A stretch of DNA of 36,267 nt from Thermoanaerobaculia bacterium (GTDB lineage Bacteria; Acidobacteriota; Thermoanaerobaculia; Gp7-AA8), in contig JADGNY010000069.1 in assembly GCA_017883235.1 (NCBI GenBank), positions 1 to 36,267 of the forward strand, given 5' to 3'. Under the pieces are notes generated by a model. That model saw only the letters and a list, made by a program, of their open reading frames with translations, was not told the DNA's origin and did no database searches. The number at the start of each line of letters is the position of its first letter. The stretch's first letter is position 1. Below are positions 514 through 34,541 of the stretch, piece after piece. A program made the translations under genes and the position numbers.

Positions 514-561
514 GATTGGTTGCGGGGGCGGGATTTGAACCCGCGACCTTTGGGTTATGAG
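514..561 (-). repeat. Distal attachment-site copy: detached 3' part of tRNA-fMet
   Basis: These 48 bp are identical, in the same orientation, to 20247-20294. On the minus strand they run from position 32 of the tRNA (anticodon loop CTCATAA) through the variable region, T-arm, acceptor 3' strand and encoded CCA, plus 3 bp. The sequence on the 5' side (562 upward) has no D-arm or acceptor partner, so this is not a tRNA gene. Tyrosine-recombinase elements often cross over in the anticodon loop and leave exactly such a displaced 3' half at the far end. Confidence 0.85.
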
Positions 562-796
562 GGGGCGAGCCTTCATAGTCCGCGGGACGCACCAGTGCTG
601 AGAGTTTTCCGACTCCGTGGTTTCTCCAAGCGTCTCCGTGCCAGAGCTGTGCTAGCTCGGGAAGTAGAAGCCATCGGCCGGGATCAGGAAGACATCGGCT
701 TGGTGCGCTCGGCTGCCTGGCTGAGAATGTCGAGACAAACGTGGAGTTCACACTCAGGAGGTCTTCGGTTCGATCCCGTTCAGCTCCACCACCTTC
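562..796. other. Island left end without a protein gene
   Basis: Between the detached tRNA-fMet half and the stop codon of gene C there is no convincing coding sequence. Apart from the tRNA-like 3' half at 747-791 I see no integrase, excisionase or transposase remnant here. Confidence 0.5.
747..791 (+). pseudogene. Second tRNA-like 3' half (anticodon CAC, Val-like), degenerate
   Basis: The bases fit tRNA positions 32-76: loop TTCACAC (anticodon CAC), TCAGG, variable AGGTC, T-stem TTCGG, T-loop TTCGATC, CCGTT, acceptor CAGCTCC, discriminator A and CCA. The T-stem has two mismatches, and the 31 nt before 747 do not supply a 5' half. AGAGCTG at 643-649 could pair at 6 of 7 positions with the acceptor strand and is soon followed by TAGCTCGGG, which resembles a D-arm. 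A tRNA pseudogene split by about 70 nt is therefore an alternative. It lies 5 nt beyond the stop codon of giant gene C. The resemblance is clear but the origin is uncertain. Confidence 0.5.
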
Positions 797-3700
797 TCAG
801 ACAGTCAACTCGTTCTGCTCGAGATTCACGAGCCCAGACGAGTTCTCCACCATGATGCGGAAGCGGTGATAGAGGGTGTTGCCGGCTGCGTCCTCCTTCA
901 CCAGCACGTCGGAGGCGAGGGTTGTGGTTTGCAGGTCGACCTGGATCGACGGCGCGTTGCTTTGCACCGTGGCGATCCTGACCCACGTTCCGAGATTGTT
1001 CAGCTTATAGAGATGGTAACGGCCGTTGTACGTCGTCCGCGGCCAGCTCAGACTCACGTTTGAATATTGGAAAGGATGTGTCGCCGTCAGAGGGGCAGAG
1101 CTCATCGCGATCTGCGGCGCCGCCGGGTTGACCGTGTCGGCCACCGTCGTCATCGCGGCATCCGAGGCCTTTGAAGGGATGATCTCTTCTTCGCTGCGCT
1201 CGTTGATGATGTGGCGGAACGCAACCACGCGATAGTAGACCGGCTGTGCGAACGGCACGTAGCCGAGATCCGCGAAGTCGTCGTAGGCTGCCGCCGCGTC
1301 GACCGGGAACGCCTTTACCTCGGTCATCGTGCGTGGGCTCAGCGCGCCGTCGGCATCGAGAGCCCGGTAGAGCTTGTACGACGCGACACTCTCGCTCGGC
1401 AGGTAGCCGCTCAGCTCGAAGTTGACGCGCGGGGTCGTGACATCGAAGCCATTGACGAGTTGTGCGGTGATCTTGCGTATGACCGGTGCTTCGGGCGGCG
1501 CCGTGTTCACCAGTTGCACCGGGCCGGCTATGGCGCTTCGCGCGCTCACCTTCAATGTATTGGCAAGCTCCATGGCAAAGTAGAAATAGAGGTTCTTCGA
1601 CGCGCCGTCGATCGTGTAGTCCGTAAAGCGCACCCAGCGCGTATTCGCTGAATTGCCGTAGCCCGCGTCGCCCGCCTGCAGCACGTCACCGCTGACGTTT
1701 TTCTCGTAACGCACGGCCATCGGCCAGGGATCGCCGGGAAACAGCCGTTTGCCGTTGGTATCGCGGATCTTCGCTGGGCGTCCGGAGGTCTGCAGTGACA
1801 AATCATTAAGCTGGCGGTAAACGGGCGGGGCCTCGGTCAACGGCACGAACGCGCCGTTGATCGCTTCTTGGACCACGTCCTTCATCGTTCTCATCGTGCC
1901 AGGAACGTGAGTGCCGCTCCCGGGTGGCGTGCGGTCGCCGACGGTGGGGGTGACGAAGGGATTGACAGCGGGGTTATCGGGAATCACGTAGTCGGGATTG
2001 TCGGGAATTGGGAACCGGAAGCCGTTCAAGGCATGCTCGATGAAGTTGTCGTCCGGGCCGGTAACGACGTGTACGAGGTCGCTCCAGCGCTGACTTGTAA
2101 AACGTTGATCCCAATCGGAAAGGTTGTCGAGCTGGGCCACGATGCCGCGTACCGTGGAGGGTTGATAGAGTTGATCGAGGATCTTCCGGTCATTGGCCTT
2201 GTAGAAAATGAGGGAGTAGGGATCGTCCACCTGCACGTCGAACGTGTAGGTGGCCTTGCCGAAGAAGTTGGGGCGCGTGGCGAACAGCGGGCCGAGGGGC
2301 GGGCCGGGGGGAACGGGGTCGCGCAGCTCAAGCGCCAGAAGGACTGCTGGCTTGGCCATCGGCGAGGTCAACCGAGGCGACTGCGAGCTGTCGCGGGATC
2401 GCACCGTCATCAACGTCTGTCGCGTGCGCTCGTCGCGCACGGGCAGGATCGCAGGCTCGCCGAAGTTGTGTCCGGCGGTCAGGTCGGCGGTCAGATAGAC
2501 GCGATAGGACGGATGGAAGTTGACGTTACCAACGAGGCCCGTTCGGATCGGCACGTAGCCGTCCGCGAGAACGAAGTCGTTGGACTGAAGCAGGAACATG
2601 CCGGCGGCGTCGCGCTTCAGGCCGAAAGTGCTGTCGAATACGATGAGCTCGAGCGTCGGCTTGCTGCGATCGATATCCCAGACGCGCAATACCTTGATGT
2701 TCCCGTTCACATCGGGCATGCGGATGATGCCCTCATGAAAGTCGACGTCAGGATCGGCGATCGCGGGAAGTTGACGCGCTGAGAATCGGACAACATAGGC
2801 CCCAGACGGCACCACGGCTGGGCCGCCCGCTGGTACGAAATCGCCGATGTGCAGATCGGGATCGGGCACATCGGTGACAACCACGGAGTCGGAGAGTCCT
2901 CCCAGATGCAGCGTGCGGATCTGGCCGTCGTTGTGCGTCACGGTTTCGGTGTACGGCGGAGGAAATGAAACGATGTTGATCTCTTTGGCCAGCTTCGTGT
3001 CCCATGCCGCTGGATCATCAAGATCTTCGGAGATCAGGAAGCGTTCGCCGGGGCTCGGGCTGAGCCACGACTCGACAGTGCAGAACGATCTGTCCTGGTC
3101 GATGCTGAGTGAGGCCGTGTCGCGATTCTGCCGGAGTAGCAGCGTCGGATTCACGCCGGTGCTCAGCACGGAGTCAATGAGCCACGACTGACCGTTCGCT
3201 GAGAAGCGAGCGCCGACAAACCGCGACGCATCTGCGGGAGTGATCTCAGGCTGGACGGTCTGCGGAGGGTTCGTGCTGGCGATGGGATAATCCGTCGTGA
3301 CGATCGTCGCCGTGTGAGTCGCCGGATGATCGGCTACCGAGGCGACCTCCCCCCGCACGATCGCCGGCGGTCGGGCCCGGAAATAGAGCTCTACCTTGTC
3401 GGCCGATTGATACGCGTCGTTCTGCACGTAGTTCCAGTCAAAGGTGGCGCGAACGAGGGTCTTATCCCCAGGCGGTAGAAACAGCAGGCGGCCCTGCTCG
3501 TCGCCAGACGTGAAGATGAGCGGGTCCTCTTTTTGGATGAGCTGGACCGCGAAGTTCGACGGCGGCATGAGCGTATTGCGCGGCGCAAACGTGGTCGCGT
3601 CGGTCTGCACCTCGGGTGATACCCCTGCCGTGCGTGAAAACCAGTTGATGCTGTAGAGAGCGTAGTGATGGATCCCGGCGTTGCGCTCCTCGTGCGTGTA

Positions 3701-6586
3701 GACAGGATTTTCGCCGCGCTCCGGGATGGGAGACACTTCCGGCACGCCGGCGGGATCGAGCCAGTCGGGATTGTTACTGAGCTCCGGCTGCACTTCGTTG
3801 CCGGTGCCGATCGCACCCGGCCCGTAGCGCACGCCGAAACAGACCGGCACCGACTCTTCGCAGAGGCAGAACTCTTCGGCGGTCTGGAAAAAGGTCTCCA
3901 GCGGCCGTTCGTAGCGGAACGGATCGCGATCGAGATTGATGAAGCGCGCGTCGGCGAAGGAAGCGTAGCCGGCGGGATCGGTGAGCGGCGTTGTCGTGCC
4001 GCCACACTTCTCGGGCGGCAGCCCGTAACTGAGATGGATCGCCGGGACCGGCGGTTCTTTGAAGTCAGTGATGCTCACCGGTGGCGTCATGTAGTAGTGC
4101 GTGACACGCGCTGGCGTCTCATGCTCGAGCCGGGCATCCGTGATGTACCGCATCAGGTAAAGGAACTGAGTCGACGGAGTAACGGTGGGGTTCGGGTCGA
4201 TCGCGCCGAGGCCGAGCACGCGCGCCACGTGATAGTCGAGCGACACGAAGTTGAGCAGGTCGAGGTAGCTCAACTCCATTGTGGAGGTGTTCGAAACAGG
4301 ATCCGAGTTTGCCGTGACCACGTTGGCCTGGACGTCGGTTCGACTAACGTCGAGGTAGGTAGTCACCGCTGATTTCAATCCGTCGGCAGGCATGCGCCAG
4401 CGATCGCGGTAGTTCTGCGCGCGGACGCGGAACACGCCTGGAGCGGGCACGCGCTGGAACTTCGGCCATACACCGTCGATGGGTGTCTTCGCCGGATCTT
4501 CGAGACGCCGGAACACCTCGGCATCAGCGTCGGCGTTCCCGTCGTCCAGGCTGTAGTCGCCCAGCTTCGTCCATTCGCGGCGCGCGCAGGAGCCACGCAG
4601 AAAATCCTCATAGGTGGCGATGTGCAGCGAGACCGGAACGACACTGGAGTAGTCGAAGCGGACGCACTCGATGTTCTCGCAGTTGACCGACGCATTGGTC
4701 GCCGGCGTGAAGGTGCGCCGGCACCCGAGCGTACGCGACGTATTGTCGAGGGGATCGGGTAGCGTCACCGCCTCGACGCGCAGGCGCTGGCCCGTGGTCG
4801 CGACGCTGCTGCGAAGTTGGATCGACGCCGAAAAAGCGAGTTTGCCAACCGCACGTGCCTCGATGACTCCTGTGTACGACGTGACGAGCCCCTGCGGGTC
4901 GGTGTGCGGGTCGTGGCCCGGGCGCAGGGCATCGTACTGGGCGACGTCTGCGAAGCGGATCGATACGTCCGTCAAGTGGCCGGGGAACGAGCCAAGGTCT
5001 TCGTACAACCATTCGCGAAACGGGCCGCTCTCGAAGAGCGACGTTGGCGGCGTCTTGAATCCGACGTCCACGCCGTAGTCGTTGCGGAGCTCGGTGCGAT
5101 AGATGCGGACGAAGTCATCGGCGCGGTTGTAGCCGATCGTTGCCGGCCACGGGCCGCCGGGCGCGGCGAGGTTGCCTTTGGGAAGGTGCTCGGCCAGGCC
5201 CCGCAGCAGGTCCCATCGCAGGTCGAAACCGCGGACGGTCTGATCGCTGAAGTCGGAGCCGGCGGCCTGCAGGTAGATGTAAGGCGATTGGAAGCGAGGA
5301 TTGGTCTCCAGATCGACGGCGATGCCCGAAGGGCACTCTTCCGATACCACAGGATTGACGGTTTGAACCTGCACCTTCTGTGGATTCACGGTCATCGTCA
5401 CGGGCGTTACCTTGACGGACCACTGGCTGACGTTGAGCGCCAGTCTGCTCAATTCAGGCGGCGTCAAGTCAGTCGTGACGCAGCTCGCGAAGCCGGGGTC
5501 CGTGTAAGCGACCAGTGCGGCATCACCGGCGGCGCCGCACACGACCAGACCGTGGGCATCGTCGAAGACTTCGCGAATGTCGGTCAGAGAACAAGGAACG
5601 GGAAGGTTCAACGCCCGCTGCCAGAGCAACTGGAGCTGAGGGTTGAACTGCGCTACGAAGCTCTTGCGCGTTCCCGCGATCGTCGCGGCGACGTAGATGC
5701 CGACAGGGTCGATCAGGAGATGCCTGGAACCATCGTCCTGAAAATCATAGACAAGCGCAGTGATTCCGTTCGTCGCCGGTAGCGTCGGCAGCGTGGCAAT
5801 GAACGTGCTGCGGCCAGTGCCCCCCGAGACCTCGGTCTCGCCGACGATCACAAACTCCTGCGGGCCCGTCCGGGCCATCTGGCTGATTTGCTGGAGACCA
5901 TCGGCGCCGATGAGCTTCGCCCAAATGATGCCGAGGCTGGCGTCGAACGCTACGGCAAAGCCGTCCCAGCCCTGTCCTGAACTGGTGCCTCCGAATACGA
6001 TGCACCCTTGGTCGTCGGCGATGATCGAGCCGAGCTGGTCATCGCCTCCCGAGTCGATGTTCACGGCGGCAAGCACCTTGCCCGTGCCATCGATCCGGAC
6101 CACCTCCACATCGTCGCTATCGCCCGCTTGGTTGTACCACGATGCAAAGTAATAGGTGTCGCCGAGCCCCTTGACGAGGCGGGTGTTGAATCGCGTGCGA
6201 TCGCGGCTGTAGGTGTTGGCCCAGAGCACGTCGCCAGCAGCGGAGACGCGAATGATCAGCGACTGATTGCGCGCGTCGGGGGCGCTGCCGCTAACAACAA
6301 CGAGCGAGCCGTGAAGCATCAGGTCGCCGTTGTCGCAAGCCACGCCGCTCCAGAAATGGATGGTCTGGCCCGCGATCGAATACGTTTTCTGCCACACCGA
6401 TTCGCCGGACCGAGTGATGGATGCGAGGAGGCCGCTCTCCCGATAGTTCCCGACAATGCGGAAACCGCCGCCCTGAACATCATCCGCGATGACGATCGAC
6501 GCGTAGGACGCCGTCGCGTCGAAATCAAATTCGTTGACGAAGTAGGTCGCGGAGGCGACGAAATCAGGGTTCATGGGGAGGGTCAT
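797..6586 (-). CDS. Giant protein C: beta-propeller-like N-terminus and fibronectin-III-like C-terminus, function unknown
   Basis: About 1929 aa, last gene of the A-B-C operon. I chose ATG 6586, 7 nt beyond the stop of gene B; an open frame continues 31 codons upstream but overlaps gene B and looks non-coding. Residues 1 to about 390 hold repeats built around a Trp strand (SVWQKTYS, VLWANTYS, IIWAKLIG, LLWQRALN) followed by Gly/Asp turns, which suggests a beta-propeller. The middle, about 450-1650, is unrecognised. It contains a Cys-rich stretch (CLCEESVPVC) and IHHYALYSINWFSR, a phrase I associate with unannotated giant proteins of Bacteroidetes (recollection only). From about residue 1690 there are two fibronectin-III-like segments (SYKLYRALD, RYHLYKLNN). 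There is no signal peptide or membrane span, so secretion would need a dedicated route. The coding call is secure; the function is unknown. Confidence 0.85.
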   Translation of the reverse strand: MTLPMNPDFVASATYFVNEFDFDATASYASIVIADDVQGGGFRIVGNYRESGLLASITRSGESVWQKTYSIAGQTIHFWSGVACDNGDLMLHGSLVVVSGSAPDARNQSLIIRVSAAGDVLWANTYSRDRTRFNTRLVKGLGDTYYFASWYNQAGDSDDVEVVRIDGTGKVLAAVNIDSGGDDQLGSIIADDQGCIVFGGTSSGQGWDGFAVAFDASLGIIWAKLIGADGLQQISQMARTGPQEFVIVGETEVSGGTGRSTFIATLPTLPATNGITALVYDFQDDGSRHLLIDPVGIYVAATIAGTRKSFVAQFNPQLQLLWQRALNLPVPCSLTDIREVFDDAHGLVVCGAAGDAALVAYTDPGFASCVTTDLTPPELSRLALNVSQWSVKVTPVTMTVNPQKVQVQTVNPVVSEECPSGIAVDLETNPRFQSPYIYLQAAGSDFSDQTVRGFDLRWDLLRGLAEHLPKGNLAAPGGPWPATIGYNRADDFVRIYRTELRNDYGVDVGFKTPPTSLFESGPFREWLYEDLGSFPGHLTDVSIRFADVAQYDALRPGHDPHTDPQGLVTSYTGVIEARAVGKLAFSASIQLRSSVATTGQRLRVEAVTLPDPLDNTSRTLGCRRTFTPATNASVNCENIECVRFDYSSVVPVSLHIATYEDFLRGSCARREWTKLGDYSLDDGNADADAEVFRRLEDPAKTPIDGVWPKFQRVPAPGVFRVRAQNYRDRWRMPADGLKSAVTTYLDVSRTDVQANVVTANSDPVSNTSTMELSYLDLLNFVSLDYHVARVLGLGAIDPNPTVTPSTQFLYLMRYITDARLEHETPARVTHYYMTPPVSITDFKEPPVPAIHLSYGLPPEKCGGTTTPLTDPAGYASFADARFINLDRDPFRYERPLETFFQTAEEFCLCEESVPVCFGVRYGPGAIGTGNEVQPELSNNPDWLDPAGVPEVSPIPERGENPVYTHEERNAGIHHYALYSINWFSRTAGVSPEVQTDATTFAPRNTLMPPSNFAVQLIQKEDPLIFTSGDEQGRLLFLPPGDKTLVRATFDWNYVQNDAYQSADKVELYFRARPPAIVRGEVASVADHPATHTATIVTTDYPIASTNPPQTVQPEITPADASRFVGARFSANGQSWLIDSVLSTGVNPTLLLRQNRDTASLSIDQDRSFCTVESWLSPSPGERFLISEDLDDPAAWDTKLAKEINIVSFPPPYTETVTHNDGQIRTLHLGGLSDSVVVTDVPDPDLHIGDFVPAGGPAVVPSGAYVVRFSARQLPAIADPDVDFHEGIIRMPDVNGNIKVLRVWDIDRSKPTLELIVFDSTFGLKRDAAGMFLLQSNDFVLADGYVPIRTGLVGNVNFHPSYRVYLTADLTAGHNFGEPAILPVRDERTRQTLMTVRSRDSSQSPRLTSPMAKPAVLLALELRDPVPPGPPLGPLFATRPNFFGKATYTFDVQVDDPYSLIFYKANDRKILDQLYQPSTVRGIVAQLDNLSDWDQRFTSQRWSDLVHVVTGPDDNFIEHALNGFRFPIPDNPDYVIPDNPAVNPFVTPTVGDRTPPGSGTHVPGTMRTMKDVVQEAINGAFVPLTEAPPVYRQLNDLSLQTSGRPAKIRDTNGKRLFPGDPWPMAVRYEKNVSGDVLQAGDAGYGNSANTRWVRFTDYTIDGASKNLYFYFAMELANTLKVSARSAIAGPVQLVNTAPPEAPVIRKITAQLVNGFDVTTPRVNFELSGYLPSESVASYKLYRALDADGALSPRTMTEVKAFPVDAAAAYDDFADLGYVPFAQPVYYRVVAFRHIINERSEEEIIPSKASDAAMTTVADTVNPAAPQIAMSSAPLTATHPFQYSNVSLSWPRTTYNGRYHLYKLNNLGTWVRIATVQSNAPSIQVDLQTTTLASDVLVKEDAAGNTLYHRFRIMVENSSGLVNLEQNELTV

Positions 6587-6593
6587 CGCGGTC

Positions 6594-9500
6594 TCATGGC
6601 AGCACAAGGTGTACGGCGGCGGTGTCCACCGTCGCGTACTTGCTGCCGTCCCATTGCTTGTAATCGAACGTGAAATCAAGCGAGCCGCCTGCGGGCAGGC
6701 TCATACTGTTGTCGCTGTTCGTGACGAAGGCTTGCGAAAGATCCTTGGAGTAGAGGCACTTGTATAGAGCGCTGTCGCCGAGGTTGACCGATAGGCGGAT
6801 CGTGTCGGCGACATCGACGGCGGGGATCTTCGGGTCATTGAAAGGCTCCGGGTTCTTGACGACGATTCCCAGGACACGCCCCGAGGCTGTGTCGCGGATG
6901 ATGTTGAACTCAGTGCCAGTCGGTGGGTGGATCGCCTCCAGCTTCAGCGTACCGTCGATCAATCGATTGAAGGGATCGGCGAAGGCCTGCCGCAGCGGGT
7001 CGCCGGCCGGCATCGTGTCATCGAGCACGCTCGTGGCAACGGCGATGTCGGCTGCGGCGAACGCTTTGCCGGCCTCGAAGAGCGCCGCCTTGAGAACGGT
7101 CCCGTCATCAGGATCGACCTTCAGCTTGTAACTGTTGACCTGCTCCGCCAGATTTGCGTAACGCGAGGTCTGGAAACCGTAGCGAAGCTCCTCGCGCACC
7201 ACGTAGTCAACGTCGCTCTGCCGTTTGAAGCGCAGGTTGAAGATCGCCGTATAGAGCTTGAGTGGCTTGAGCTGCACCGCAGCCAGCGGAAAGGAGGAGC
7301 TTAGCCACGTTGGCTTGATTTCCGTAACCTTCGCGCACGGCTTTCCCTGAGTGATCATGTTGTTGAGGATCGTAATGTCCTGCGACACGAGTGGCAGAGG
7401 GCTCAGTTCCCAAACGGCTTCCACAGCACCGGCCTCAGGAACACTGGGGTCGGGGGCCGGATCTTTGACCAGAACTTCAAAGACTGCATTGGCCCCTTCG
7501 AGACCTCCGAAAGGCGCCCAGCCGCAGAACATGCGGGCGACGTACGTCTCCAGATAGAACAACGACAGGCTTGGGCTCGAATAAAACAGCGGCTTGGCGT
7601 TGATGAGCTGTCCGTTCGCGTTGGGGGAGCACTTGTCGAAGTCGAGGTAGTGCAGCAGGCCGATGAGCTTGAACTCGTCGCCGTGGCCTGCAGCTTCCAG
7701 CGCCGCATAGTCGCTGCGCGGAACCTGCACTCCGTTGGCGTCGCTGTAAATGTGGAAGAAGCCGAGGGGCCCGACAGTGCAAAATCCGTAGACGGAGTCA
7801 TTGGTGTAATGGGTCAAGAGGCTCAAGGCGCCCGAGTTGCTCTCCTGATACAGCCAATCGGTCGTCTTGACGCGAATCGCGTAGTGCCTGTTGGGAGCCC
7901 ACAGCGGCTGGATGGATCCCTGGAAAGCGTTGACGATCGTGGCCACCTCGGCATCGACGCTGCTCTGCGTCGGCAGCGTGGCGTTGAAGGCCGCTGTAGG
8001 ATAGTCGAGCGTACAAATCTCGTGCAGGTACACGCCGCCATTGTCCCAATGCGTGCCCTCACCGCGTGGCGGCTGCACCGGTTGCCCATTCGACACGATG
8101 ATGGGCGAATCGCCGAGAAGCGCCACCGTGCTCTCACCGTTTGGCCCGCGCACCCGCGCATCGATCACGAATGTCGTGTTCGGGCCGTCCTTCAAGCGGA
8201 GACCATCAGCGCGGAGGGTACCGAAGCCGATCACGTCATCGAAACGGAAGCCGTCTCGCGAAAACGGTAGTGCGAGCGACATCGCGTTGCTGAAGACGCC
8301 GTCCTGGAATGTCACCTCGATACGCACGGGCGGACCCGGTACCACGGTGGCCGTGAGCCATACCTTGCGTGTTTCGCCGGGAGGAACACCGCCGGGGCGC
8401 GGAAAGGCGCGGTCGAACACAGCAATCTCTTCGGGAGAAAGCTTGACACGCGGCTGCACCAGGCGATTGGCGGCTGCAAGAATCTCCAGCAGTTCGCCAA
8501 GCGCTTGCGCTGCTCCCGTCACCGGCCCGGGCAACGAATTCGCGGCTACCTCGCACCGGATGATCGGATGGCACGAGCGGCCACGAAGGGTGACTCGCTT
8601 TGTCCCCGCCGGCGTCACGACCTCGGCGTCGATGAGGAACGTGCGGTTCGCGCCGGCAACTGGCGGTGCGCTATCAATGCGCAAATCGTAAACACGGGCG
8701 ACTTGGTTCCAGTCAATCGATATCGTGCCAGCGATCAAAGTCAGGTCGAGCGGACACGGACGGCCACGCCCATCGGTGATGATGGCGTGCAACTCGGTGT
8801 CGCTGAACGACAACAGGTTGTAGAGGACGCAGTCCTGACCGAACGGCGGCGACGTGAGAGGCGGCGACCAGCCGTATGGTGGTGAGCCGAACGGTGGTGA
8901 GCCATGTCGTGGTGACCCGTATGGCGGTGACCGGTGTGGAGGCGAGCGGTGTGGAGGCGACCATCGGATTGGTGGCGAGGTGTCGCCTACACCGCCGTCC
9001 CAATCGCCGTGTTCTCCGGCGCAAAGCACCGCGTTGAGGCTCAGGTGCTCGCCACGTCTGATGAGGGCATCGAGAAAGCGCTCCAGGTCACGGCCTTCCG
9101 CACTGACCGCGGTGTCGCAGATGAGCGGAGGATACACGCTCGTCTCGCCGGCGCTGATGACGATCTTGTGGACCGGTTGCGAGATGTCGTCATAACCAAC
9201 GTCAACCGCCGCACCTCGCTTTACAGGCTTCGTGACGGTGAGCACATAGCCAAACTGTGTGGGATCGAGGCCGGGACGCGGCGGCGGCACCGGCACTTGC
9301 TGATAGAAGCTCACCGTTGCCGTGTCGGTGCCGATCGTCAGCGTCAAGTGTACCGATACGGAGGGCTCAACCGGAAACAGCTCGATCGTCGTTCCGGCAT
9401 CGACCCATACGGCCGGTCCGTCGCCGTCCGGCGGATGGTCGACAACACTCCCGCTGCCGCCTGTGAATCGGATCTGGAAAGGGTGATGGAAGAACCGCTG

Positions 9501-12500
9501 GCCTTCGGGCAGCACTACGGGTGGTTTCCCGTTCGGCACAAGGTCGTTGAAACGGACGCAGGTTGGACGAATCGGATCAGGCGCGCAGAAGATCGACTCC
9601 ACCGTAATGCCGGAGTCCTCCAATACGGGATTTCCGGAACCCTGCGAGGCATAAGTCAGAGGCGACTGCGCCATGACGCGCAGCTTGTTGTGCAGGTTGG
9701 GCTGCTGGTACTGCCAGAAACCCTGTTTGAGCGTCGATAGGTCCGTTGTAATAAACGGCACGAGCTGCGCCGGCGTCGCGGCACTATAGATATTGTAGGG
9801 TTTCCACGCGGTCACGTCGTACGGCATCGACGCAGCGCCGTCGTAATAAAGGATCTCAACGCTGTCGAGGGTGTACTCATGGCGCACGCGGTCCGACTTC
9901 CCCCGCTGCGGCGGGACATACTCGATGTAGTCGCTGCCCATGGTATTGCCACCGAAAACACTGATGACCGAGGCCGATGGATTGACGCCCTTCATGAACT
10001 CGATGTCGATGTATGAGTCCATCGGCAGCATGTACGCATCGAGATCGGCCGGTTGCGGCAACGATGTTCCCGTCCAGAGCTCGTACGTCTCTTGCGTATG
10101 CATGTTGAGGGCTTTGCCGGAGTCCGCGAGGTTCTCTTTGAGGAGCCTGTTCTTGCCCGTATTGAGATCGGAATTAAAGAGCCAGGAGAACTCGAACTTC
10201 GCGCAGCGGTCCTTGCGCAGGACGCGCACGCACACTTCGATCGACCCGGCGATCGCGAACGGCTTCGTTCCCTCGGCGGCGAGCGACGCCGCGGCGCTGA
10301 TGCCGAAGCCGAATCCGAAGATCGAGAGCTGGACGCTGCCCCCGATCCGGATCGACGCGCCGATTTGCCGGGGACGGAAGCTGATGTGGCCGGCCGTGTC
10401 GAGATACGCGCTCAATTCGGCTTTCAGCGGACCGAACTTCTTGCTGAGGTGGTAGGAAGCGCCGGCACCGGCCCGGATGCCGGCATTCGACATCATGAAA
10501 TAGAAATAGGCGTCAATGATCGACAGCAGCCGCACGCTGACGCGCTCGTTGACGGGATTCTCTTTGCCAATGTCGATGTACCAGGCGAAGGAGCTACCCC
10601 AGAAGAATCCCATCTGGATGAGGGCATCGACGGTGGCGATGCCTCCCGGACTGGGGTCCTCAGCGGGGATCAAGTACTTCACGCCGAACGCCGCTTCGAC
10701 CGAGGTCTTGGTGATGGCGATCAATGCGAAGAACGGCGGGTCGGTCGTATCGGTAAGACGGATGCGCTCCTTGAGGATCTGCCCCTGGCCCTGCAACAGA
10801 AACACTTCCGGTAGCGATAAGAGAAAGAAGATTTTGCTGGAGAAGGTGATTCCGCTGTCCGCGGCGGTTGCCAGCGACACTCCGGCGCCCAGCGAGAACC
10901 CGCTGGTCTGCGCGAATTTCGAGATCTGAATGCCTTCCTGATAATCATCGGCGATCTTGGCCTTGTAGTACTTCCACCACGGCGCGCTCTCGTCGTGGAG
11001 GACCTGGTCCCGGCTGGCCACATATCTCTGGCCGAAAAGGGCACGGAAGTCCCAGATCCCAAGGCCGGTGGCGCCCAGCAGAATGGGAGTGGACAGCTCG
11101 AGCCCGACGTCGATGATGAATGACGGCACGCTGGGATTGAGGCGCATGGACGCGGCGCCGCCCATCTCGAGCCTCGGCAATCGGAAGGAGATGGAGCCAA
11201 CGTACTCCGTCCCGCTTCCAGGCGGCTGGGCAGCACGCATCGCCAGGTAGCCGTGTAGGATCAGCGCAGCGTTATCGGGCTCGGCGTCGTTGGGAATCAG
11301 CAGATCGACGGTGATGCTCTGGATACGTATGAAGCGGTCGGGCTTGCGCTGGTTCGGATCGCCGTCGGACAGACTGTTGTTGTCAACGGTGTAATAGAAC
11401 GCGATCCCGCTCCCGCTGGCGTCGACACCTCCGGGACTGACGTTGATGCTGCCGTCAAAGGTGAAGTACTTGTACTGCCGCAGGTGCCCATCGTGCTCCT
11501 GCTCGTGAGAGCCGAAGCCGATCGCTGTCACAGACAGATTCACCGGCCCGACCTTCAGGGGGATGGCGCGCGGCAAAGTGAGCTTGCCGCCCTCGAGCTC
11601 GATCTTGCCGTCGTCCCAGATGGTCAGCTTCTGCACTTCGATCTTGTCAGGCAGGAACTTGCCGATGACACCGCCCTGGTCCGCGAAGTCGAGGGCGCCG
11701 ATAATGGTGACGAAGAAACGGTGGTCCTTCCGTTCTACGGAGAGGCTGTAAATCTCGACATCGAGCACGCCCGGAATGCTCAGTGCGCGGATTCCCTGAT
11801 CGTCCGCAGCCGTTACTTTGAAGTTTCCATCGCTGCCAATATGGACGGTGATCTGTATCTCAGCGTCGTTTCCCTTGTCGTCCTTGAAACCGGGGATCTT
11901 CATCGACCCGCGGATGTCGGACGTGGTGATGGTGTTCTGATGGAGCGAGACGCTGACCGCGCTGAGAGCGATCTCGAAGCCCGACCCGAACTTCGCCTTC
12001 ACCAGCGCCGGCGTCGTCGAGGTTGGATTGACCGCCTCCAACGCGATCCTGCCGGACAAGCCACCCGTGCCCGCCAGGATCTTGAGACCGACGAGCCGGG
12101 CACTCGACGCAGGGTCTTGATTGAAAAACGGTGGCAGCTTGACCGTCGCCTTGTCGATAAAGACGCCGACGAAGTCGACCGGCCTGCCGTCGGCGGTCGC
12201 CTCGGGGATGTTCGTCGTGCGGCTCAGATCGAGCCGCGCTCCGGAGATCTCGATCTGGAATCCGGTGCTCCCGATCTGCGACGGATCCAGCGACGCCGTG
12301 AGAGTCTCGTCGTAGCCGATTCCCTCCTCGGTGCTGAAGGAGAAGGTCCCGGCGTCAAACGTGAGCTTCGACGATGCCGGGTCGTCGAGCGGCTTGCCTC
12401 CCACCGCGTCGAGCGGAACGAGGATGCTGCGTGGGAAGCGGATGGCGGCGCCGATCTGCAATGTCGCGTCGACGCGTGGCGTGATGAGCTTCAGGAAGTA

Positions 12501-13184
12501 GCTCTTCAGCGAGCCCCCGAACAGCCCGCCAAGGAACGTCTCGAGCCTTGCCTCCGTGCCGGCGAGGTCGAGGTCGTCCAGGATGTACGTGACGAACACT
12601 ACGATCGATGCGCCCTTGCCGATGACGCTCTCGATCTTCGTCAGAGCGTCGCCGAGAGGGTCGGTGCTCAGCGGATCGGCCGGAGTGATGGCCGTGGAAT
12701 ATGCAGTGCTGACGTCGGCCAGAAGCTTGTTGATCTGATCCAGAGGCGTGGCGCCCGTGACGAACACGCCGAGAGCACGGTCAAGAAGCTGGCGCTCAGT
12801 CAGACCTGTCGCAGTCAGGGCAAGTTGGTAGAAGTCCGCGGGCGAGAAGGCGAATGACTCGAGATGAAATTGTCGTACCCAGCCGAGAATGCCCCATTCG
12901 TAGCGAAGGGTGACCGGGAACTCGGACGTCGAACCCGCCTGTAGTCCCGGATTGAGCTCGAGGAAGATCCCGGTGCCCGGAACCTCGATCTCGAGCAGTT
13001 TGGCGCTGACTATGGTCAGACTGTAGTTCGCCGCGTCGCCGTGGGGGCTTCGACCCTGCTCGAAGTCCTTGAAATAGAGGCCGGTGAGGAGATTCCCGAT
13101 GCCGTCTTTGACGAAGCCTAATGCTTCCGGCAACGCGTCGAGCGGCAGGAGCAAGGAGAGCTTCGGATAGTAGACCGTTGACAT
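6594..13184 (-). CDS. Giant protein B: unknown function, long Gly/Ser-rich beta-type repeats
   Basis: 2196 aa. The gene begins 24 nt after gene A ends, with a weak purine-rich AGAGAG before the ATG. The N-terminal 1000 or so residues are alternating hydrophobic/polar strands (for example GLSGRIALEAV, IGSDGNFKVTA, SIRIGGSVQLSIFGFGFGIS) with almost no Cys. This is typical of long beta-sheet scaffolds and reminiscent of the DUF6603 type of giant protein; that resemblance is from memory and weak. Around residues 1400-1450 lies a Pro-rich linker of SPPxx pentapeptides. The last 350 residues look globular, with Cys, Trp and Tyr. No signal peptide, transmembrane helix or catalytic motif is evident. 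Its position between A and C implies a joint complex (inference). Confidence 0.85.
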   Translation of the reverse strand: MSTVYYPKLSLLLPLDALPEALGFVKDGIGNLLTGLYFKDFEQGRSPHGDAANYSLTIVSAKLLEIEVPGTGIFLELNPGLQAGSTSEFPVTLRYEWGILGWVRQFHLESFAFSPADFYQLALTATGLTERQLLDRALGVFVTGATPLDQINKLLADVSTAYSTAITPADPLSTDPLGDALTKIESVIGKGASIVVFVTYILDDLDLAGTEARLETFLGGLFGGSLKSYFLKLITPRVDATLQIGAAIRFPRSILVPLDAVGGKPLDDPASSKLTFDAGTFSFSTEEGIGYDETLTASLDPSQIGSTGFQIEISGARLDLSRTTNIPEATADGRPVDFVGVFIDKATVKLPPFFNQDPASSARLVGLKILAGTGGLSGRIALEAVNPTSTTPALVKAKFGSGFEIALSAVSVSLHQNTITTSDIRGSMKIPGFKDDKGNDAEIQITVHIGSDGNFKVTAADDQGIRALSIPGVLDVEIYSLSVERKDHRFFVTIIGALDFADQGGVIGKFLPDKIEVQKLTIWDDGKIELEGGKLTLPRAIPLKVGPVNLSVTAIGFGSHEQEHDGHLRQYKYFTFDGSINVSPGGVDASGSGIAFYYTVDNNSLSDGDPNQRKPDRFIRIQSITVDLLIPNDAEPDNAALILHGYLAMRAAQPPGSGTEYVGSISFRLPRLEMGGAASMRLNPSVPSFIIDVGLELSTPILLGATGLGIWDFRALFGQRYVASRDQVLHDESAPWWKYYKAKIADDYQEGIQISKFAQTSGFSLGAGVSLATAADSGITFSSKIFFLLSLPEVFLLQGQGQILKERIRLTDTTDPPFFALIAITKTSVEAAFGVKYLIPAEDPSPGGIATVDALIQMGFFWGSSFAWYIDIGKENPVNERVSVRLLSIIDAYFYFMMSNAGIRAGAGASYHLSKKFGPLKAELSAYLDTAGHISFRPRQIGASIRIGGSVQLSIFGFGFGISAAASLAAEGTKPFAIAGSIEVCVRVLRKDRCAKFEFSWLFNSDLNTGKNRLLKENLADSGKALNMHTQETYELWTGTSLPQPADLDAYMLPMDSYIDIEFMKGVNPSASVISVFGGNTMGSDYIEYVPPQRGKSDRVRHEYTLDSVEILYYDGAASMPYDVTAWKPYNIYSAATPAQLVPFITTDLSTLKQGFWQYQQPNLHNKLRVMAQSPLTYASQGSGNPVLEDSGITVESIFCAPDPIRPTCVRFNDLVPNGKPPVVLPEGQRFFHHPFQIRFTGGSGSVVDHPPDGDGPAVWVDAGTTIELFPVEPSVSVHLTLTIGTDTATVSFYQQVPVPPPRPGLDPTQFGYVLTVTKPVKRGAAVDVGYDDISQPVHKIVISAGETSVYPPLICDTAVSAEGRDLERFLDALIRRGEHLSLNAVLCAGEHGDWDGGVGDTSPPIRWSPPHRSPPHRSPPYGSPRHGSPPFGSPPYGWSPPLTSPPFGQDCVLYNLLSFSDTELHAIITDGRGRPCPLDLTLIAGTISIDWNQVARVYDLRIDSAPPVAGANRTFLIDAEVVTPAGTKRVTLRGRSCHPIIRCEVAANSLPGPVTGAAQALGELLEILAAANRLVQPRVKLSPEEIAVFDRAFPRPGGVPPGETRKVWLTATVVPGPPVRIEVTFQDGVFSNAMSLALPFSRDGFRFDDVIGFGTLRADGLRLKDGPNTTFVIDARVRGPNGESTVALLGDSPIIVSNGQPVQPPRGEGTHWDNGGVYLHEICTLDYPTAAFNATLPTQSSVDAEVATIVNAFQGSIQPLWAPNRHYAIRVKTTDWLYQESNSGALSLLTHYTNDSVYGFCTVGPLGFFHIYSDANGVQVPRSDYAALEAAGHGDEFKLIGLLHYLDFDKCSPNANGQLINAKPLFYSSPSLSLFYLETYVARMFCGWAPFGGLEGANAVFEVLVKDPAPDPSVPEAGAVEAVWELSPLPLVSQDITILNNMITQGKPCAKVTEIKPTWLSSSFPLAAVQLKPLKLYTAIFNLRFKRQSDVDYVVREELRYGFQTSRYANLAEQVNSYKLKVDPDDGTVLKAALFEAGKAFAAADIAVATSVLDDTMPAGDPLRQAFADPFNRLIDGTLKLEAIHPPTGTEFNIIRDTASGRVLGIVVKNPEPFNDPKIPAVDVADTIRLSVNLGDSALYKCLYSKDLSQAFVTNSDNSMSLPAGGSLDFTFDYKQWDGSKYATVDTAAVHLVLP
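8838..8985 (-). repeat. Pro-rich SPP-pentapeptide repeat inside gene B
   Basis: About ten 15-nt degenerate units encode SPP[YFHIL][GR]-type pentapeptides, with interspersed Trp. At DNA level the plus strand shows a recurring GGTGGTGAGCC-like word. It probably forms an extended, flexible or surface-exposed linker between the long beta region and the C-terminal part. Such arrays expand and contract easily. Confidence 0.75.
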
Positions 13185-13208
13185 CGTTTTCTCTCTTCGA
13201 GTACGACC

Positions 13209-16200
13209 TCACATAGGCCGGCTGTCGAGCCAGCGCCTGATCAGTTGCCGGACCACGTCGATGATCTGGCCGATGGAAAGATGGGAATAGTGGGTGGACG
13301 GGACGTGGAAGTGTCCGGTGAGCGTTGCGCTGTTCCGCGTCACCCGGCAATAAGCGATACGGTAGAAGATCTCGTTTGAGAGGTAGTTGCTACCAGAGCC
13401 TTCCTTCGCCTCGCCTGTAGGTAGGACCTCATTCGCCTCATTGGTGTTCGTTGACCCCGGATGCTGCACGGGCGGCTTGCCAATGATGATGTAGCTCTGG
13501 TCAAAGAACAGGTTCTGCGTGGGCGCCGGGGGCCACGCGAACGGTCCCTCAACCATGTGCTTATGGTCCAGCGTGGTCTCGTAGAACGGCAGGTACGTCG
13601 CATCGCCGACTTTGCTCGACTGCTGGGACTTGCCTTCGTTGTCCTGACCCCCGCTCCGAAGCTGCCCGGCAAACCGCTCCAGGTCGAAGTAGCGCGCGCT
13701 GCCGTTTTGGCTCACGGAGATAATCGTGGTTGCGAGTAACGGGTCAGCTACGATGCCAGTTGGCAGGAGCCACCGGTTCGCCAGCTTTTCCACACGTCCT
13801 GCGTCGAAGTCGCGATAACGGACCGGAAAGATCGCGGTTTCCACGTAAGCTGGGGTGTGGTGGACGGGATCGGACGATAGGATCGTTTGGCCGTGCAGCG
13901 CGAGGGCGACGGCGCCGGCTGGATTGCTGGTCACGATGCCGTCGTCTGGGTTACTAGGGTCATCGAAGTCGAGTCGGAACGGATCGAAGCCCGTTAGTAG
14001 CACTCTCAGATACGTCTGATCGGTCGGCTGACCGGCAAAGTCGAGATCGTATCCCCGTGATGTCCGCTCGAGGGCGTTGAGGATCTCGTCGCGGGCCGTA
14101 AATGCCTTCACACAATACGGGTGGCTCTTGATGTCCACCGTTATGCGCAGGCGGGTCCAATAGAGCGTTCGGTCAAAGTCATTGGCATGCATGGGATCCT
14201 GCCCCGCCAACTTGCGCGCGCGCTTCAGGATTTTCGGCCCGATGGCGTTGACCTTGGCGAGAATACCCGCCTTCGCGGCCGGGTCGTCCTTGCCTATGTT
14301 CCCGAGATCCACGGCGAACTGATCGACCAAACTACGCATCCGGTCAATTCCGTCGGTGGGCGGGTTCTGGTCGAGATTGATGAAGTAATCCTCGACGTAT
14401 CGCTGCAGAGTGGAGGCGCTGACGAGAGAGGCCGAAGGCCCCAGCGGCGAGGGCCCTCCGCTCAGCACGATGACGGTGTCGCTGCCGCTAAGCGTCGCCG
14501 AGAAGATTGTATACTCATCGAAGCTGTCATCCGCTTTCTTGATCTGCACACGGTCGCCGGGGAAGATTTCGTTGCGCCAGTCATATCCGGCGATGGTGAT
14601 CGAATTCATACTTGCGTCGGCTGCGTCGATCCGTCGCTCGCTTACCGGCCAGATGTGTACTCCCATCTCTTCCTCAAAGATGCGGACATAGTTCTCCGAA
14701 GGTGCCTCGCCGGTCGCGAAGTCTTTGGAGGCGAAGAACTGTCCGTCGAGTGTGTAGACCTGGATATCCGTTGACGGAAACGCTGAGTCTCGAGTGCCGT
14801 CGGCTGTCTTAAGTCCCTGTATCCCGATACGGTAGCGGTCAAATGTAAAGCCGTTGATGTCCGTTATGGTTGTCTTTCCGTCGAGCACCACGGTCCGCTG
14901 CCAGTCTTTACTAAGTCCAGGTCCTAGACTCAACAGCATGTCCATTTCACTTTTCGATAGCCCGAGGATAAGGGCACTGCTCGGTGGGTAGCCGTTTGTC
15001 GGAGTCTGGAGGAAACGGAGCGTATGCACCGTAACGCCAGCATCAATGACTTCATCCTGCTGGAGTGCGTAGACGCCGAAAAGGCTCGGCTCGGCGAAAA
15101 AGCTGCTCCGGTCGCTGACTCCATCTGGAACGGATCTAAGCGAAACGAAGTCGACCGCCCCGGAAAAATCGCAAGCTGTCGCTACGGCGTAGAACAGCGT
15201 CCGCAAGTTGCCGGTCGTTTCCTGCGCCAGCCCGCAGCGCATCATCTGCCTCCAGCCGACGGCGCTCTCAGCATCCACGTAACGGTTGTCTTGAATATTG
15301 GACCACTTGATGTTCGCCGCGTGTTTCCAATTCGAGACTCGATCGATCGGCCCGAAGACGCAATCGGTGTACTTCAGTGCGGTCACGACTGTTGTCGGAA
15401 GCGGCACGGTCCGGGCCGCGACTTCCTGGCGGCCATAGAGAAGTCGAAGGAGCCACGCCACACCAACCTTCGCTCCGGAGGGGCCCGTGTTTGGATGGTT
15501 GAAGCCGACTGCGCTCGTCCACTGAGACGCGCCAAGCGCATCGGGCCCAACGAAGGGGCCGTTTCCGGAGATCAACTCGCCGTGTTCGACGTACATGACC
15601 GGGTTCTCGTTGTCGTCGCGTCTAAGCCGGATGAATTGCTCCAACTTGTCACTGGACGTGTTGACGGCGGCGCTTTTGTCGAGGATGAGGATCGGCCATC
15701 CCTGAGTGGCGTATGGCGCCGGCGCACCGGGATTCAGTGCGTCGCCGCCGACCTGGACCTGATTACCCGCGCCATCGTCGTAGTTGCGGTGGAAGTTCAG
15801 CGAGCTGCCGTTGTCGCTGCGGATGTCGACGTATAGTCTATTGGGCCCGGCGAAACAGTCGATGATGTTGGCGAAAATATCCTGTCCCGTGTACGGCCCC
15901 GGCGGCGTTACCGACGGTGGCATCGTGACCTTGCCGCCGTCATGCATGTGCAGCCCGTAGAAAGCTGCCGGGTCGAGAAAGTTGAGGATCTTTTCCTTCT
16001 CGAGCCGTTGCGCCAGAGTGCCGTCCGGGGCGCCCACGACGATTTCATTCACTGCTGTGCGGGCGTACCGGAGGTCGGGCGCGTAGACGCCCTCCTGCAA
16101 CATCACCTCGAAGCCGAAGTCATACGTGCCGCCGGCCGTGTTGAATAGGCCGAGATTTGTGCCCTCGCCAACAAAGGGAAGTTGCTTCGCGGGGTCCAGC

Positions 16201-16604
16201 CGAAAGAAGAGGTCGTCGAGCAGATTAGTGTCCGGGGTACTGGCATCGTGGCCGAGGAAGGTGGCAGGCACCGTGGTCTGCGTAGGGTTGAGCTCCAGGA
16301 AGTCATTCCAGATCGAGAGGATGAGGGAGGAAGACCCAGCCTGCGCGCGCAGCCGGGTGGCAGCGGCACCGCTCGCTCCTTCGAGGAATTCGTCGAGCCG
16401 CAAGCCGCGGTAGACGAAATAGCGGATCGGCATCAGTCCCTGAAGCGGCTGCGACAATGGCTTGAGGATGAGGTTCACAGCGTCGTTGTTCGCCGGATCG
16501 CGCTGCAGCGCGATCGTTCCGCTTGTCACGGCGTAGGCGTGAACGTCGCTTGTCGAGCGAAAGAGTGCCGTCGTGCGATATCGAGTGGTCGGGCTGCCGT
16601 CCAC
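13209..16604 (-). CDS. Giant protein A: unknown N-terminal region with C-terminal pyroglutamyl-peptidase-like (C15) domain, Cys replaced by Ser
   Basis: The open frame gives 1131 aa from GTG 16604, but that start lacks a ribosome site. The same frame continues plausibly coding upstream (FVFADVGSLTQTAQQAFGP before the GTG) to an in-frame TAG at 16755-16757, and beyond it to an ATG at 16883. The early part, about 55-80, carries IRYFVYRGLRLDEFLEG. From about residue 865 the sequence follows peptidase C15: LLTGFDPF...NPAGAVALAL, then ISVSQNGSARYFDLERF with the active-site Glu, and near the end YLSNEIFYRIAY and GHFHVPS with the active-site His. The usual YxCN motif reads YLSN (codon TCA at 13377-13379), so the nucleophile is missing. 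It is the first gene of the A-B-C operon, with no signal peptide seen. Coding is secure; the C15 relationship is fairly strong; the role is unknown. Confidence 0.85.
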   Translation of the reverse strand: MDGSPTTRYRTTALFRSTSDVHAYAVTSGTIALQRDPANNDAVNLILKPLSQPLQGLMPIRYFVYRGLRLDEFLEGASGAAATRLRAQAGSSSLILSIWNDFLELNPTQTTVPATFLGHDASTPDTNLLDDLFFRLDPAKQLPFVGEGTNLGLFNTAGGTYDFGFEVMLQEGVYAPDLRYARTAVNEIVVGAPDGTLAQRLEKEKILNFLDPAAFYGLHMHDGGKVTMPPSVTPPGPYTGQDIFANIIDCFAGPNRLYVDIRSDNGSSLNFHRNYDDGAGNQVQVGGDALNPGAPAPYATQGWPILILDKSAAVNTSSDKLEQFIRLRRDDNENPVMYVEHGELISGNGPFVGPDALGASQWTSAVGFNHPNTGPSGAKVGVAWLLRLLYGRQEVAARTVPLPTTVVTALKYTDCVFGPIDRVSNWKHAANIKWSNIQDNRYVDAESAVGWRQMMRCGLAQETTGNLRTLFYAVATACDFSGAVDFVSLRSVPDGVSDRSSFFAEPSLFGVYALQQDEVIDAGVTVHTLRFLQTPTNGYPPSSALILGLSKSEMDMLLSLGPGLSKDWQRTVVLDGKTTITDINGFTFDRYRIGIQGLKTADGTRDSAFPSTDIQVYTLDGQFFASKDFATGEAPSENYVRIFEEEMGVHIWPVSERRIDAADASMNSITIAGYDWRNEIFPGDRVQIKKADDSFDEYTIFSATLSGSDTVIVLSGGPSPLGPSASLVSASTLQRYVEDYFINLDQNPPTDGIDRMRSLVDQFAVDLGNIGKDDPAAKAGILAKVNAIGPKILKRARKLAGQDPMHANDFDRTLYWTRLRITVDIKSHPYCVKAFTARDEILNALERTSRGYDLDFAGQPTDQTYLRVLLTGFDPFRLDFDDPSNPDDGIVTSNPAGAVALALHGQTILSSDPVHHTPAYVETAIFPVRYRDFDAGRVEKLANRWLLPTGIVADPLLATTIISVSQNGSARYFDLERFAGQLRSGGQDNEGKSQQSSKVGDATYLPFYETTLDHKHMVEGPFAWPPAPTQNLFFDQSYIIIGKPPVQHPGSTNTNEANEVLPTGEAKEGSGSNYLSNEIFYRIAYCRVTRNSATLTGHFHVPSTHYSHLSIGQIIDVVRQLIRRWLDSRPM

Positions 16605-16754
16605 GGGGCCGAAGGCCTGCTGCGCGGTCTGCGTGAGCGACCCGACGTCGGCGAAGACGAAGGAGTAGGGCTGGAGCTCCGTCGCCTTCGCTGCTGCAAC
16701 TGTCCCGCTTGGCAGCGACTGTTGCCCCGTTACCCCATTTTCAACATCTCCGTA

Positions 16755-16883
16755 CTACAGGGAAAGCACCTGTTGATGTTGGTGGATCTTCTGAATGAGT
16801 GCTGACAGTATTTCCTTCCCGCGAAGAAGGCTAGAGAGGTCAGGACTGCCGAGAAGCGCCCTGTCAAACGTTACATCGTTCAT
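16755..16883 (-). CDS. 42-codon frame, apparent N-terminus of protein A cut off by TAG
   Basis: ATG 16883 opens a 42-codon frame (MNDVTFDRALLGSPDLSSLL, then a helical stretch) ending in TAG at 16755-16757. It is in the same frame as gene A, and the 50 codons between the TAG and GTG 16604 are open and protein-like. It also lies 10-20 nt downstream of a good promoter, with AGGA 11 nt before the ATG, and an in-frame stop closes the frame further upstream. The natural reading is that this is the true N-terminus of A, giving a total of 1224 codon positions. The TAG would then be a nonsense mutation, a sequence error, or a site of readthrough. A free 42-aa leader peptide is the alternative. Confidence 0.6.
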   Translation of the reverse strand: MNDVTFDRALLGSPDLSSLLRGKEILSALIQKIHQHQQVLSL

Positions 16884-16900: not shown

Positions 16901-16929
16901 AACATACGTCGGGAGTCTACTGAAGTCAA
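16901..16929 (-). promoter_or_regulatory. Sigma70-type promoter of the A-B-C operon
   Basis: On the minus strand TTGACT (16924-16929, 5/6 of the -35 consensus) and TATGTT (16901-16906, 4/6 of the -10 consensus) are separated by exactly 17 bp. Transcription should begin near 16894, about 10 nt before ATG 16883, giving a very short leader. This supports 16883 rather than 16604 as the start of gene A. Confidence 0.65.
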
Positions 16930-19792: not shown

Positions 19793-20246
19793 GATCGGCG
19801 CCGGCACGCCCGTGCGGCGGTAAATCAGGAAGCATAGTGCTAAGGAAATGTATCTCGGCGTAGATTTTTTCCGCCAAGCCAGCAGAGAAATCGATGGCGC
19901 GCGTCCACATCGATCTCCGAGTCTTCTGCGTCGTCTCGGACGTGCGTCAAGTCTCAAGGGATCAGCCGGGACTTCGAGTGCGATGACCTGCTCCCGAATA
20001 CCGGCGGCTTCGTGAAGACGCTCCGGCGCGAGTGCGTGCTCCCGCCCGGACAGTCCTCGCCGTCGCTCGCGGAAGTTGCTCCGGGACCTCGGGAGAAGAA
20101 GTAGAAAGAGTGACGGGGCAGGCCTGCCCCGTTGTGAGGTGGAACGCGTCGAAATACGTCGAAATGGGCCGAAATCGGCACAATTCGAGAGCGACCCCAA
20201 AACGAACCAAAGGCTGCGGGCAACCGCGGCCTTTTCAGTAAGTTCG
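19793..20246. other. Island right end: no protein gene, palindrome and short repeats
   Basis: I see no convincing gene in these 454 bp. They hold a 20-bp perfect palindrome at 20113-20132 (ACGGGGCAGGCCTGCCCCGT) and three 10-bp units at 20147-20176 (CGTCGAAATA, CGTCGAAATG, GGCCGAAATC). The tRNA-proximal terminator follows. Next to an attachment site such repeats could be recombinase arm sites, but no recombinase gene is present to support this. Confidence 0.5.
20209..20234 (-). terminator. Hairpin downstream of tRNA-fMet
   Basis: AAAGGC...GCCTTT arms with an inner GCGG/CCGC stem and one internal mismatch enclose a 4-nt loop, 16 nt beyond the 3' end of the tRNA. There is no long T-run after it, so termination strength is uncertain. 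If the island is an insertion, this terminator came with the element. Confidence 0.5.
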
Positions 20247-20326
<80 letters not shown>

Positions 20327-22180: not shown

Positions 22181-22229
22181 GTTGCGCGGTCTCGTGGTGG
22201 GATCAATGGAACGACCGCGAGACCGCAAC
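22181..22229. terminator. Inverted repeat between convergent brx and regulator genes
   Basis: Arms GTTGCGCGGTCTCG (22181-22194) and CGAGACCGCAAC (22218-22229) pair with a two-base bulge between two convergent genes. Position and pairing suit a shared bidirectional terminator. T-tracts are lacking on the brx side except TTCTTTTT inside the neighbouring gene. Confidence 0.5.
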
Positions 22230-23671: not shown

Positions 23672-23762
23672 GGTTTGTCTGGCTATTGTCTCACCAGGGC
23701 TTCTCTTAACTCCTGCTTGGTGGTATTCCTGATGCTCGGATCGTAGATTCAGACGAGGAATC

Positions 23763-30358: not shown

Positions 30359-30780
30359 CCGTGTTCCTCCGCCAGTGTGTCGCGTTCCTCCGCCCGCGTG
30401 TCGCGTTCCTCCGCCAGTGTGTCGTGTTCCTCCGCCCACGTGTCGCGTTCCTCCGCCCGCGTGTCGCGTTCCTCCGCGTGTGTGTCGCGTTCCTCCGCGT
30501 GTGTGTCGCGTTCCTCCGCGTGTGTGTCGCGTTCCTCCCGCCCGCGTGTCGCGTTCCTCCGCCCGCGTGTCGCGTTCCTCCGCCTGTGTGTCGGGTTCCT
30601 CCGCCCTGGTGTCGCGTTCCACCGCCCACGTGTCGTGTCCCTCCGCCGGTGTGTCGTGTCCCTCCGCCCACGTGTCGTGTTCCTCCGCCGGCGTGTCGTG
30701 TTCCCCGCCTGTGTGTCGTGTTCCACCGCCGGTGTGTCGTGTTACACCGCCGGTGTGTCGCGTTACGCCGCCGGTGTGCA
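30359..30780. repeat. Tandem repeat array 2 (21 bp, about 20 units)
   Basis: Each unit is GTGTCG(C/T)GTTCCTCCGCC plus three variable bases (CGC, AGT, CAC, TGT, GGT). One unit has an extra C and another lacks a base, so the reading frame is not preserved across the array. On the minus strand each unit carries GGAGGAAC, which resembles a ribosome binding site. The right end is more diverged (TTACACC, TTACGCC). Confidence 0.9.
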
Positions 30781-34421: not shown

Positions 34422-34541
34422 GAGAGACCTCATTCGAATGATGTTCCGAATCTGTCGTTGCGGCAGGGCCATCCTACTACCGTCGCCGGTCCGGGCTGTT
34501 GCAAAGAGGTGAACGGGCGGGTTTTATGGCTGAAAACCGGT

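Follow-up and report, generated by a model that had tools for sequence, protein, structure and literature searches.

A contig of 36,267 nucleotides from a Thermoanaerobaculia bacterium (JADGNY010000069.1, assembly GCA_017883235.1), which is the entire contig C103 of genome G000 (6.9 Mb) and is called here the window, carries three consecutive co-directional minus-strand frames, A, B, and C, about 16 kb in all. With confidence slightly above even, the A-B-C operon is judged to be a horizontally mobile polymorphic toxin-like (conflict) system built from three giant proteins that lack export signals. This judgement, drawn from sequence comparison, relies on the variable hydrolases of the relatives, on their toxin/immunity-like arrays and lysin- or tail-fibre-like neighbours, and on allelic replacement at the level of the whole operon. 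Protein A would be the business end of the system, its constant core (A-core) serving to attach interchangeable hydrolase or toxin domains to the complex. B, whose relatives bear the annotation DUF6603 (a domain of unknown function), and C would be constant partners, probably forming a carrier that bears A. The tails of A would then act as toxins and the adjacent membrane proteins as immunity, and the complex would be released by lysis and act outside the cell. The operon may travel between phyla as cargo of islands integrated at tRNA genes, and at a given locus its entire content may be exchanged, as antagonistic selection would predict.

If this is correct, A-B-C would add to the conflict systems a mobile and polymorphic family with constant parts, the A-core and C, that are absent from the family libraries searched, and 16 kb of giant genes would be crossing phyla at tRNA sites. 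It would also give a testable role to the DUF6603 giants, so far labelled only by their domain of unknown function.

Conservation and Distribution of the Operon

In two Bacteroidota metagenome-assembled genomes the same gene order was found, with full-length B proteins 49% and 38% identical and C proteins 44% and 34% identical to those of the window; the A proteins preceding B-C in both are larger than window A. Over 1144 aa, window A shares 35% identity with the A protein of genome G524. Since B and C, in the same order, and A match Bacteroidota homologues, the three frames are regarded as real genes and not chance frames. The order A-B-C recurs in L007, L008, G524, G496, G574, G493, G549, and G491.

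Among 199 relatives of genome G101, A was detected in 16, B in 16 (a count that includes contig-truncated copies), and C in 11, and all 11 genomes with C possess both A and B; the Fisher p value for the co-occurrence is 1e-14 or less, the genomes not being independent. Among 396 genomes of the window's own phylum A was found in the window genome alone, and C recurs weakly, only in two genomes of the window's family, both carrying the second class of operon described below. In the tree of the B core window B lies inside the Bacteroidota clade with support of 100/100; together with the absence of A from the other genomes of the phylum, this makes transfer between phyla the simplest reading.

An earlier note, made from the window letters alone, had proposed A, B, and C as a conserved unit, and the neighbourhood survey agrees with it both in gene order and in the constant company of C with A and B. 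Its description of the unit as an undescribed assembly is upheld by the conserved order and by A and C, which match no Pfam, NCBIfam, or PDB family searched, but has to be relaxed for B, whose relatives are annotated as DUF6603. Scans of the three window proteins against Pfam, NCBIfam, and PHROGs gave nothing above noise, and no credible PDB sequence match was obtained for A, the A-core, the B core, the C profiles, or the N-terminal region of C.

Variable Domains of A and Possible Signs of Conflict

The A-core comprises about 450 residues with the motifs QS..FGP, AYAV..G, IKYFIYRG, NFLDPAAFYG, and YIDIR. Different enzymes are joined to it in different genomes: subtilase (S8) on A of L007, G524, G574, and G550, a metzincin motif (HEFGHLMGLDDRY, HEWGHVLGLSDRY) on A of L008 and G493, and an alpha/beta hydrolase on A of G491. 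SGNH, phospholipase D (PLD), and metallophosphatase enzymes are encoded at some loci by separate genes. The A proteins of the window, G524, and G574 share a domain resembling pyroglutamyl peptidase I (peptidase C15), and the G524 match lies above the Pfam cut-off. The motifs of this peptidase align with the C-terminal domain of window A, so that the C15 likeness pointed out in the earlier note stands, but the nucleophile Cys is not kept. In its position Ser is found in G524 (alignment to PDB 5z47), and a three-way alignment shows that the window likewise has Ser and that G574 has Phe. Owing to this replacement the enzyme activity of the window domain is doubtful; the same Ser in G524 indicates that it is not a new mutation.

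The relatives thus combine a constant N-terminal part with variable C-terminal domains, as polymorphic toxins do; the window has a single A. On contig C52 of genome G583 an array was found in which four A genes are accompanied by the same number of orphan A tails without core (genes 2, 6, 8, and 12), the latter corresponding to the orphan cassettes of polymorphic toxins that lack the constant part. The N-terminal parts of the A genes in the array are 84–96% identical, with divergence farther on; for example, g4 and g10 fall from above 88% identity to 17–42% at about residue 350. Each A or orphan gene (8 of 8) is followed by a protein of 105–136 aa with 2–4 predicted membrane segments, and seven of these eight small proteins belong to one divergent family. 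A small gene adjoining the toxin is the way in which polymorphic-toxin immunity genes are recognised (PMC3482391), and the array would offer candidate toxin/immunity pairs.

Genomes G534 and G562 form a natural operon-replacement pair. Their DNA is 92–99% identical over 13 kb upstream until the first codons of A, past which the whole A-x-y-B operon differs, with A 29% and B 37% identical and companions unrelated. Both genomes also have another A homologue, broken at the same position into two overlapping frames (L110 1269-5076; L101 303-3531). A gene with a signal peptide, transmembrane segments, or a lipoprotein signal stands directly before B in G524, G496, G534, G562, G550, and G540. The statement of the earlier note that no toxin, phage, or injection-system domain is recognised is valid for the window proteins, but the relatives have variable hydrolases, toxin/immunity-like arrays, and lysin- or tail-fibre-like neighbours.

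Gene B, the DUF6603 Proteins, and Gene C

Residues 237–988 of B are 28.9% identical (E 2e-54) to Mycetohabitans plasmid proteins annotated "DUF6603 domain-containing" (WP_212667342, WP_013436792), and on this alignment B is homologous to proteins so annotated. With the Pfam model PF20248 B remains below the cut-off of 27 bits, the best relative, in G496, reaching 23.5 bits. A branch with support of 100/100 in the B-core tree splits the A-B-C class from the DUF6603 class. This second class (Mycetohabitans, G002, G009) lacks the A-core and consists of a three-gene operon in which a C-like protein and a DUF6603-like giant are accompanied by a hydrolase, PLD in Mycetohabitans and a protein bearing SGNH motifs in G002 and G009. 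Comparison of B with phage records and viral contigs gave no match, and prophage origin is for this reason not favoured. In the open-access literature searched nothing relevant was found for the term DUF6603 or for a system matching A-B-C.

In G550 and G540 B is followed, in the place expected for C, by members of a family without Pfam match (L104 16321-19380; L105 3-2297), which are up to 1019 aa long and share 63% identity. The propeller and fibronectin-like domains that had been proposed for C were not confirmed by family scans, PDB sequence searches, or structure prediction.

Mobility at tRNA Genes

The assumption that the operon lies in a tRNA-bounded island could be sharpened to a perfect 48-bp direct repeat, equal to the 3' part of tRNA-Met, whose 21-bp core occurs only twice in the genome. 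The island so delimited is 19.7 kb long and holds A, B, C, and a glycosyltransferase; no integrase was recognised in it. In G101 the L007 island has a 47-bp tRNA-Met repeat and a length of 38.9 kb, and a tyrosine-integrase-like protein, identified by motif reading, adjoins the far repeat. The G524 and G496 loci lie in tRNA-Asp and tRNA-Lys islands, respectively, each with a tyrosine integrase recognised by the same kind of reading. The second-class locus of G002 occupies a tRNA-Thr island of 16.4 kb with a repeat of about 46 bp and no integrase recognised. No tRNA boundary was found in the examined sequence around L008, G493, G549, G534, and G009. In G003 an 85% identical 93-bp copy of the tRNA-Gly region (L012 7741-7832, 11945-12036) lies near a DUF6603-like gene, which the repeat does not enclose. 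The tRNA-Ala/transfer-messenger RNA (tmRNA)-like fragment following gene C in the window may be the scar of an earlier integration site.

Neighbouring Genes and Possible Delivery

Lysin-like genes without signal adjoin C in L008 and G496; upstream of A, G534 and G562 have an amidase-like gene. Tail-fibre-like genes follow C in G549 and G562, with PHROG matches down to 2.9e-48. These neighbours suggest that the complex may be freed by lysis and bind extracellularly.

Sheath matches were obtained elsewhere in the genome in 8 of 12 carriers (six over cut-off), on other contigs than the operon, and no sheath was detected in the remaining four, G102, G496, G493, and G534; a contractile apparatus thus seems not to be obligatory. 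Within the A-B-C loci no sheath, tube, or baseplate was recognised among the neighbours, only part of which were profiled. On another contig of the window genome a locus resembling an extracellular contractile injection system (eCIS) or phage tail was noted (G000:C120:18000-41000; L138, L139), with two sheath matches and, by reading, a tube-like gene at 34261-34761 and a LysM-like gene at 33504-34268.

A bolder interpretation is a so far undescribed kind of particle-like weapon of DUF6603-type and other giants, which would have no contractile apparatus, be released by phage-type lysis, be aimed by tail-fibre-like proteins where present, be loaded with exchangeable hydrolases or toxins through the A-core, and move between phyla on tRNA islands. 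This picture is put forward tentatively, as a rather doubtful possibility.

Evidence against the Conflict Interpretation and Alternative Explanations

Several observations weigh against a polymorphic conflict system. In most A tails no toxin domain was recognised, and the C15-like tail of the window lacks the Cys nucleophile. No possible immunity gene separates A from B in the window, L007, L008, G574, or G493, and the window copy has no immunity-like neighbour. Release by lysis is not a constant feature, as lysin-like genes were seen at about four loci and tail-fibre-like genes at two. The L007 island (G101:C123; L019, L007) also contains genes that, read by eye, resemble those of anti-phage defence: a DNA methyltransferase, an ATPase of HerA type, and a Septu-like HNH/AAA pair. 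AlphaFold2 models from three-sequence alignments reached a mean pLDDT (predicted local distance difference test) of 42 for B 1-1000 and 37 for C 1210-1929, values too poor for any fold of B or C to be claimed.

The island genes just named lead to the first alternative, an intracellular anti-phage or anti-plasmid defence in which A-B-C would sense infection and the hydrolase arm would kill or arrest the cell. The location of the operon on tRNA islands, the absence of export signals from A, B, and C, and operon replacement at one locus, which is also typical of defence islands, are all compatible with it. However, the three proteins contain neither a nucleoside triphosphatase (NTPase) nor a nuclease, the neighbours resembling lysins and tail fibres fit poorly, and the membrane or secreted partner genes are better explained by self-protection; with Pfam, PHROGs, and NCBIfam but not PADLOC searched, defence is considered unlikely.

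To a similar degree improbable is a hydrolytic complex that acts outside the cell in nutrition, predation, or the breakdown of surfaces, with enzymes varying with the substrates. The enzymes in question are indeed proteases, esterases, a phosphatase, PLD, and peptidoglycan hydrolases, and the first three loci have no immunity candidates. On the other hand, neither orphan tails paired with membrane proteins nor whole-operon replacement between near-identical loci would be expected for nutrient enzymes, and secretion signals are absent although Bacteroidota possess the type IX secretion system (T9SS).

The third alternative concerns the window copy only: the family may be a conflict system elsewhere and decaying cargo here, with the start codon of A and a catalytic residue lost. 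Such decay would account for the absence of a canonical start ahead of the conserved part of A, for the change of Cys to Ser in the C15-like domain, and for the lack of a recognised integrase in the island, but all three frames are open across 16 kb, the Ser shared with G524 is not a new mutation, and a promoter-like site is retained. It is thought no likelier than the two preceding explanations.

That A-B-C are cargo or accessory parts of an eCIS encoded elsewhere in the genome, to which the sheath matches in 8 of 12 carriers would point, among them the pair on G000:C120 that lies near tube- and LysM-like genes, is very unlikely and not favoured, as no sheath was detected in 4 of 12 carriers and the sheath loci, whose background frequency in Bacteroidota was not measured, are on different contigs from the operon. 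A Tc toxin was rejected, no domain match being found in A, B, or C.

Comparison with Known Systems

The preferred conflict-system interpretation places A-B-C closest to the polymorphic toxin systems (contact-dependent inhibition (CDI), Rhs, type VI and type VII secretion systems (T6SS/T7SS), and MuF, among others; PMC3482391), which share with the relatives a constant N-terminal part, variable tails, orphan cassettes, small adjacent candidate immunity genes, and exchange between close strains. They differ in that the constant part of A-B-C is the new A-core with two further giants, that the hydrolase can also stand at the N-terminus (S8) or be encoded by a gene of its own, and that the window copy is without an immunity candidate. 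None of the trafficking domains CdiA, Rhs/SpvB, PAAR/VgrG, LXG, and MuF was found in A, B, and C (Pfam, NCBIfam) or in the relatives (Pfam). The DUF6603 (PF20248) operons likewise include a C-like gene and a hydrolase, but have no A-core and another gene order. The Tc (ABC) toxin complexes resemble A-B-C in general plan only, as three large proteins without signal peptides; the domains of TcA, TcB (SpvB), and TcC (Rhs) were not found in the window proteins. With eCIS and tailocins some A-B-C loci have in common the lysin-like and tail-fibre-like neighbours.

Layout of the Window

The features of the window are collected in Table 1. The earlier note had described three giant consecutive genes with gaps of 24 and 7 nt, one promoter, and non-exported products. 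The genes are present as open frames with homologues in the same order elsewhere, A and B are separated by 24 nt and B and C by 7 nt, and a single sigma-70-like site, identified by consensus match, precedes the operon; a crude hydropathy scan of A, B, and C revealed no signal peptide and no clear transmembrane segment. The upper bound of 16883 proposed for A cannot be kept because of an in-frame TAG inside that frame, although the A frame itself is real. The conserved part of A starts upstream of the first in-frame ATG, GTG, or TTG codon (GTG 16604), and a CTG is in frame; consequently, either the start is non-canonical or the sequence contains an error.

Table 1: Features of the A-B-C operon and its island in the window.
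Feature	Position	Strand	Remarks
Attachment repeat, distal copy	514..561		48 bp, perfect
tRNA-Ala/tmRNA-like 3'-end fragment	743..791	+	Directly after gene C; weak match
Gene C, giant	797..6586	-	1929 aa from ATG 6586; residues ~417-1929 conserved, N-terminal part variable
Gene B, giant related to DUF6603 proteins	6594..13184	-	2196 aa
DUF6603-like core of B	10173..12497	-	Residues ~230-1004
Gene A, constant A-core joined to C-terminal C15-like domain	13209..16754	-	1181 codons open after a TAG; start codon uncertain
C15 (pyroglutamyl peptidase)-like domain of A	13209..14150	-	Ser replacing nucleophile Cys
A-core	15315..16682	-	Open-frame residues ~25-480; common to G101 and 15 other genomes of the G101 sample
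Sigma-70-like operon promoter	16901..16929	-	TTGACT-17-TATGTT; consensus match only, 0.1 expected
Glycosyltransferase with GT1 and GT2 domains	17111..20200	-	Inside island
Attachment repeat, tRNA-side copy	20247..20294		48 bp
tRNA-Met gene	20250..20326	-	Island integration site

Outside the island the window encodes an M78/ScfRs regulator (22229-23794, minus strand) and an AAA/NB-ARC STAND-like ATPase (24254-26836, plus strand), which adjoin malate synthase and isocitrate lyase. Two tandem repeats were also observed, one of about 20 copies of a 21-bp unit (30363-30778) and one of two copies of a 110-bp unit (35240-35461).
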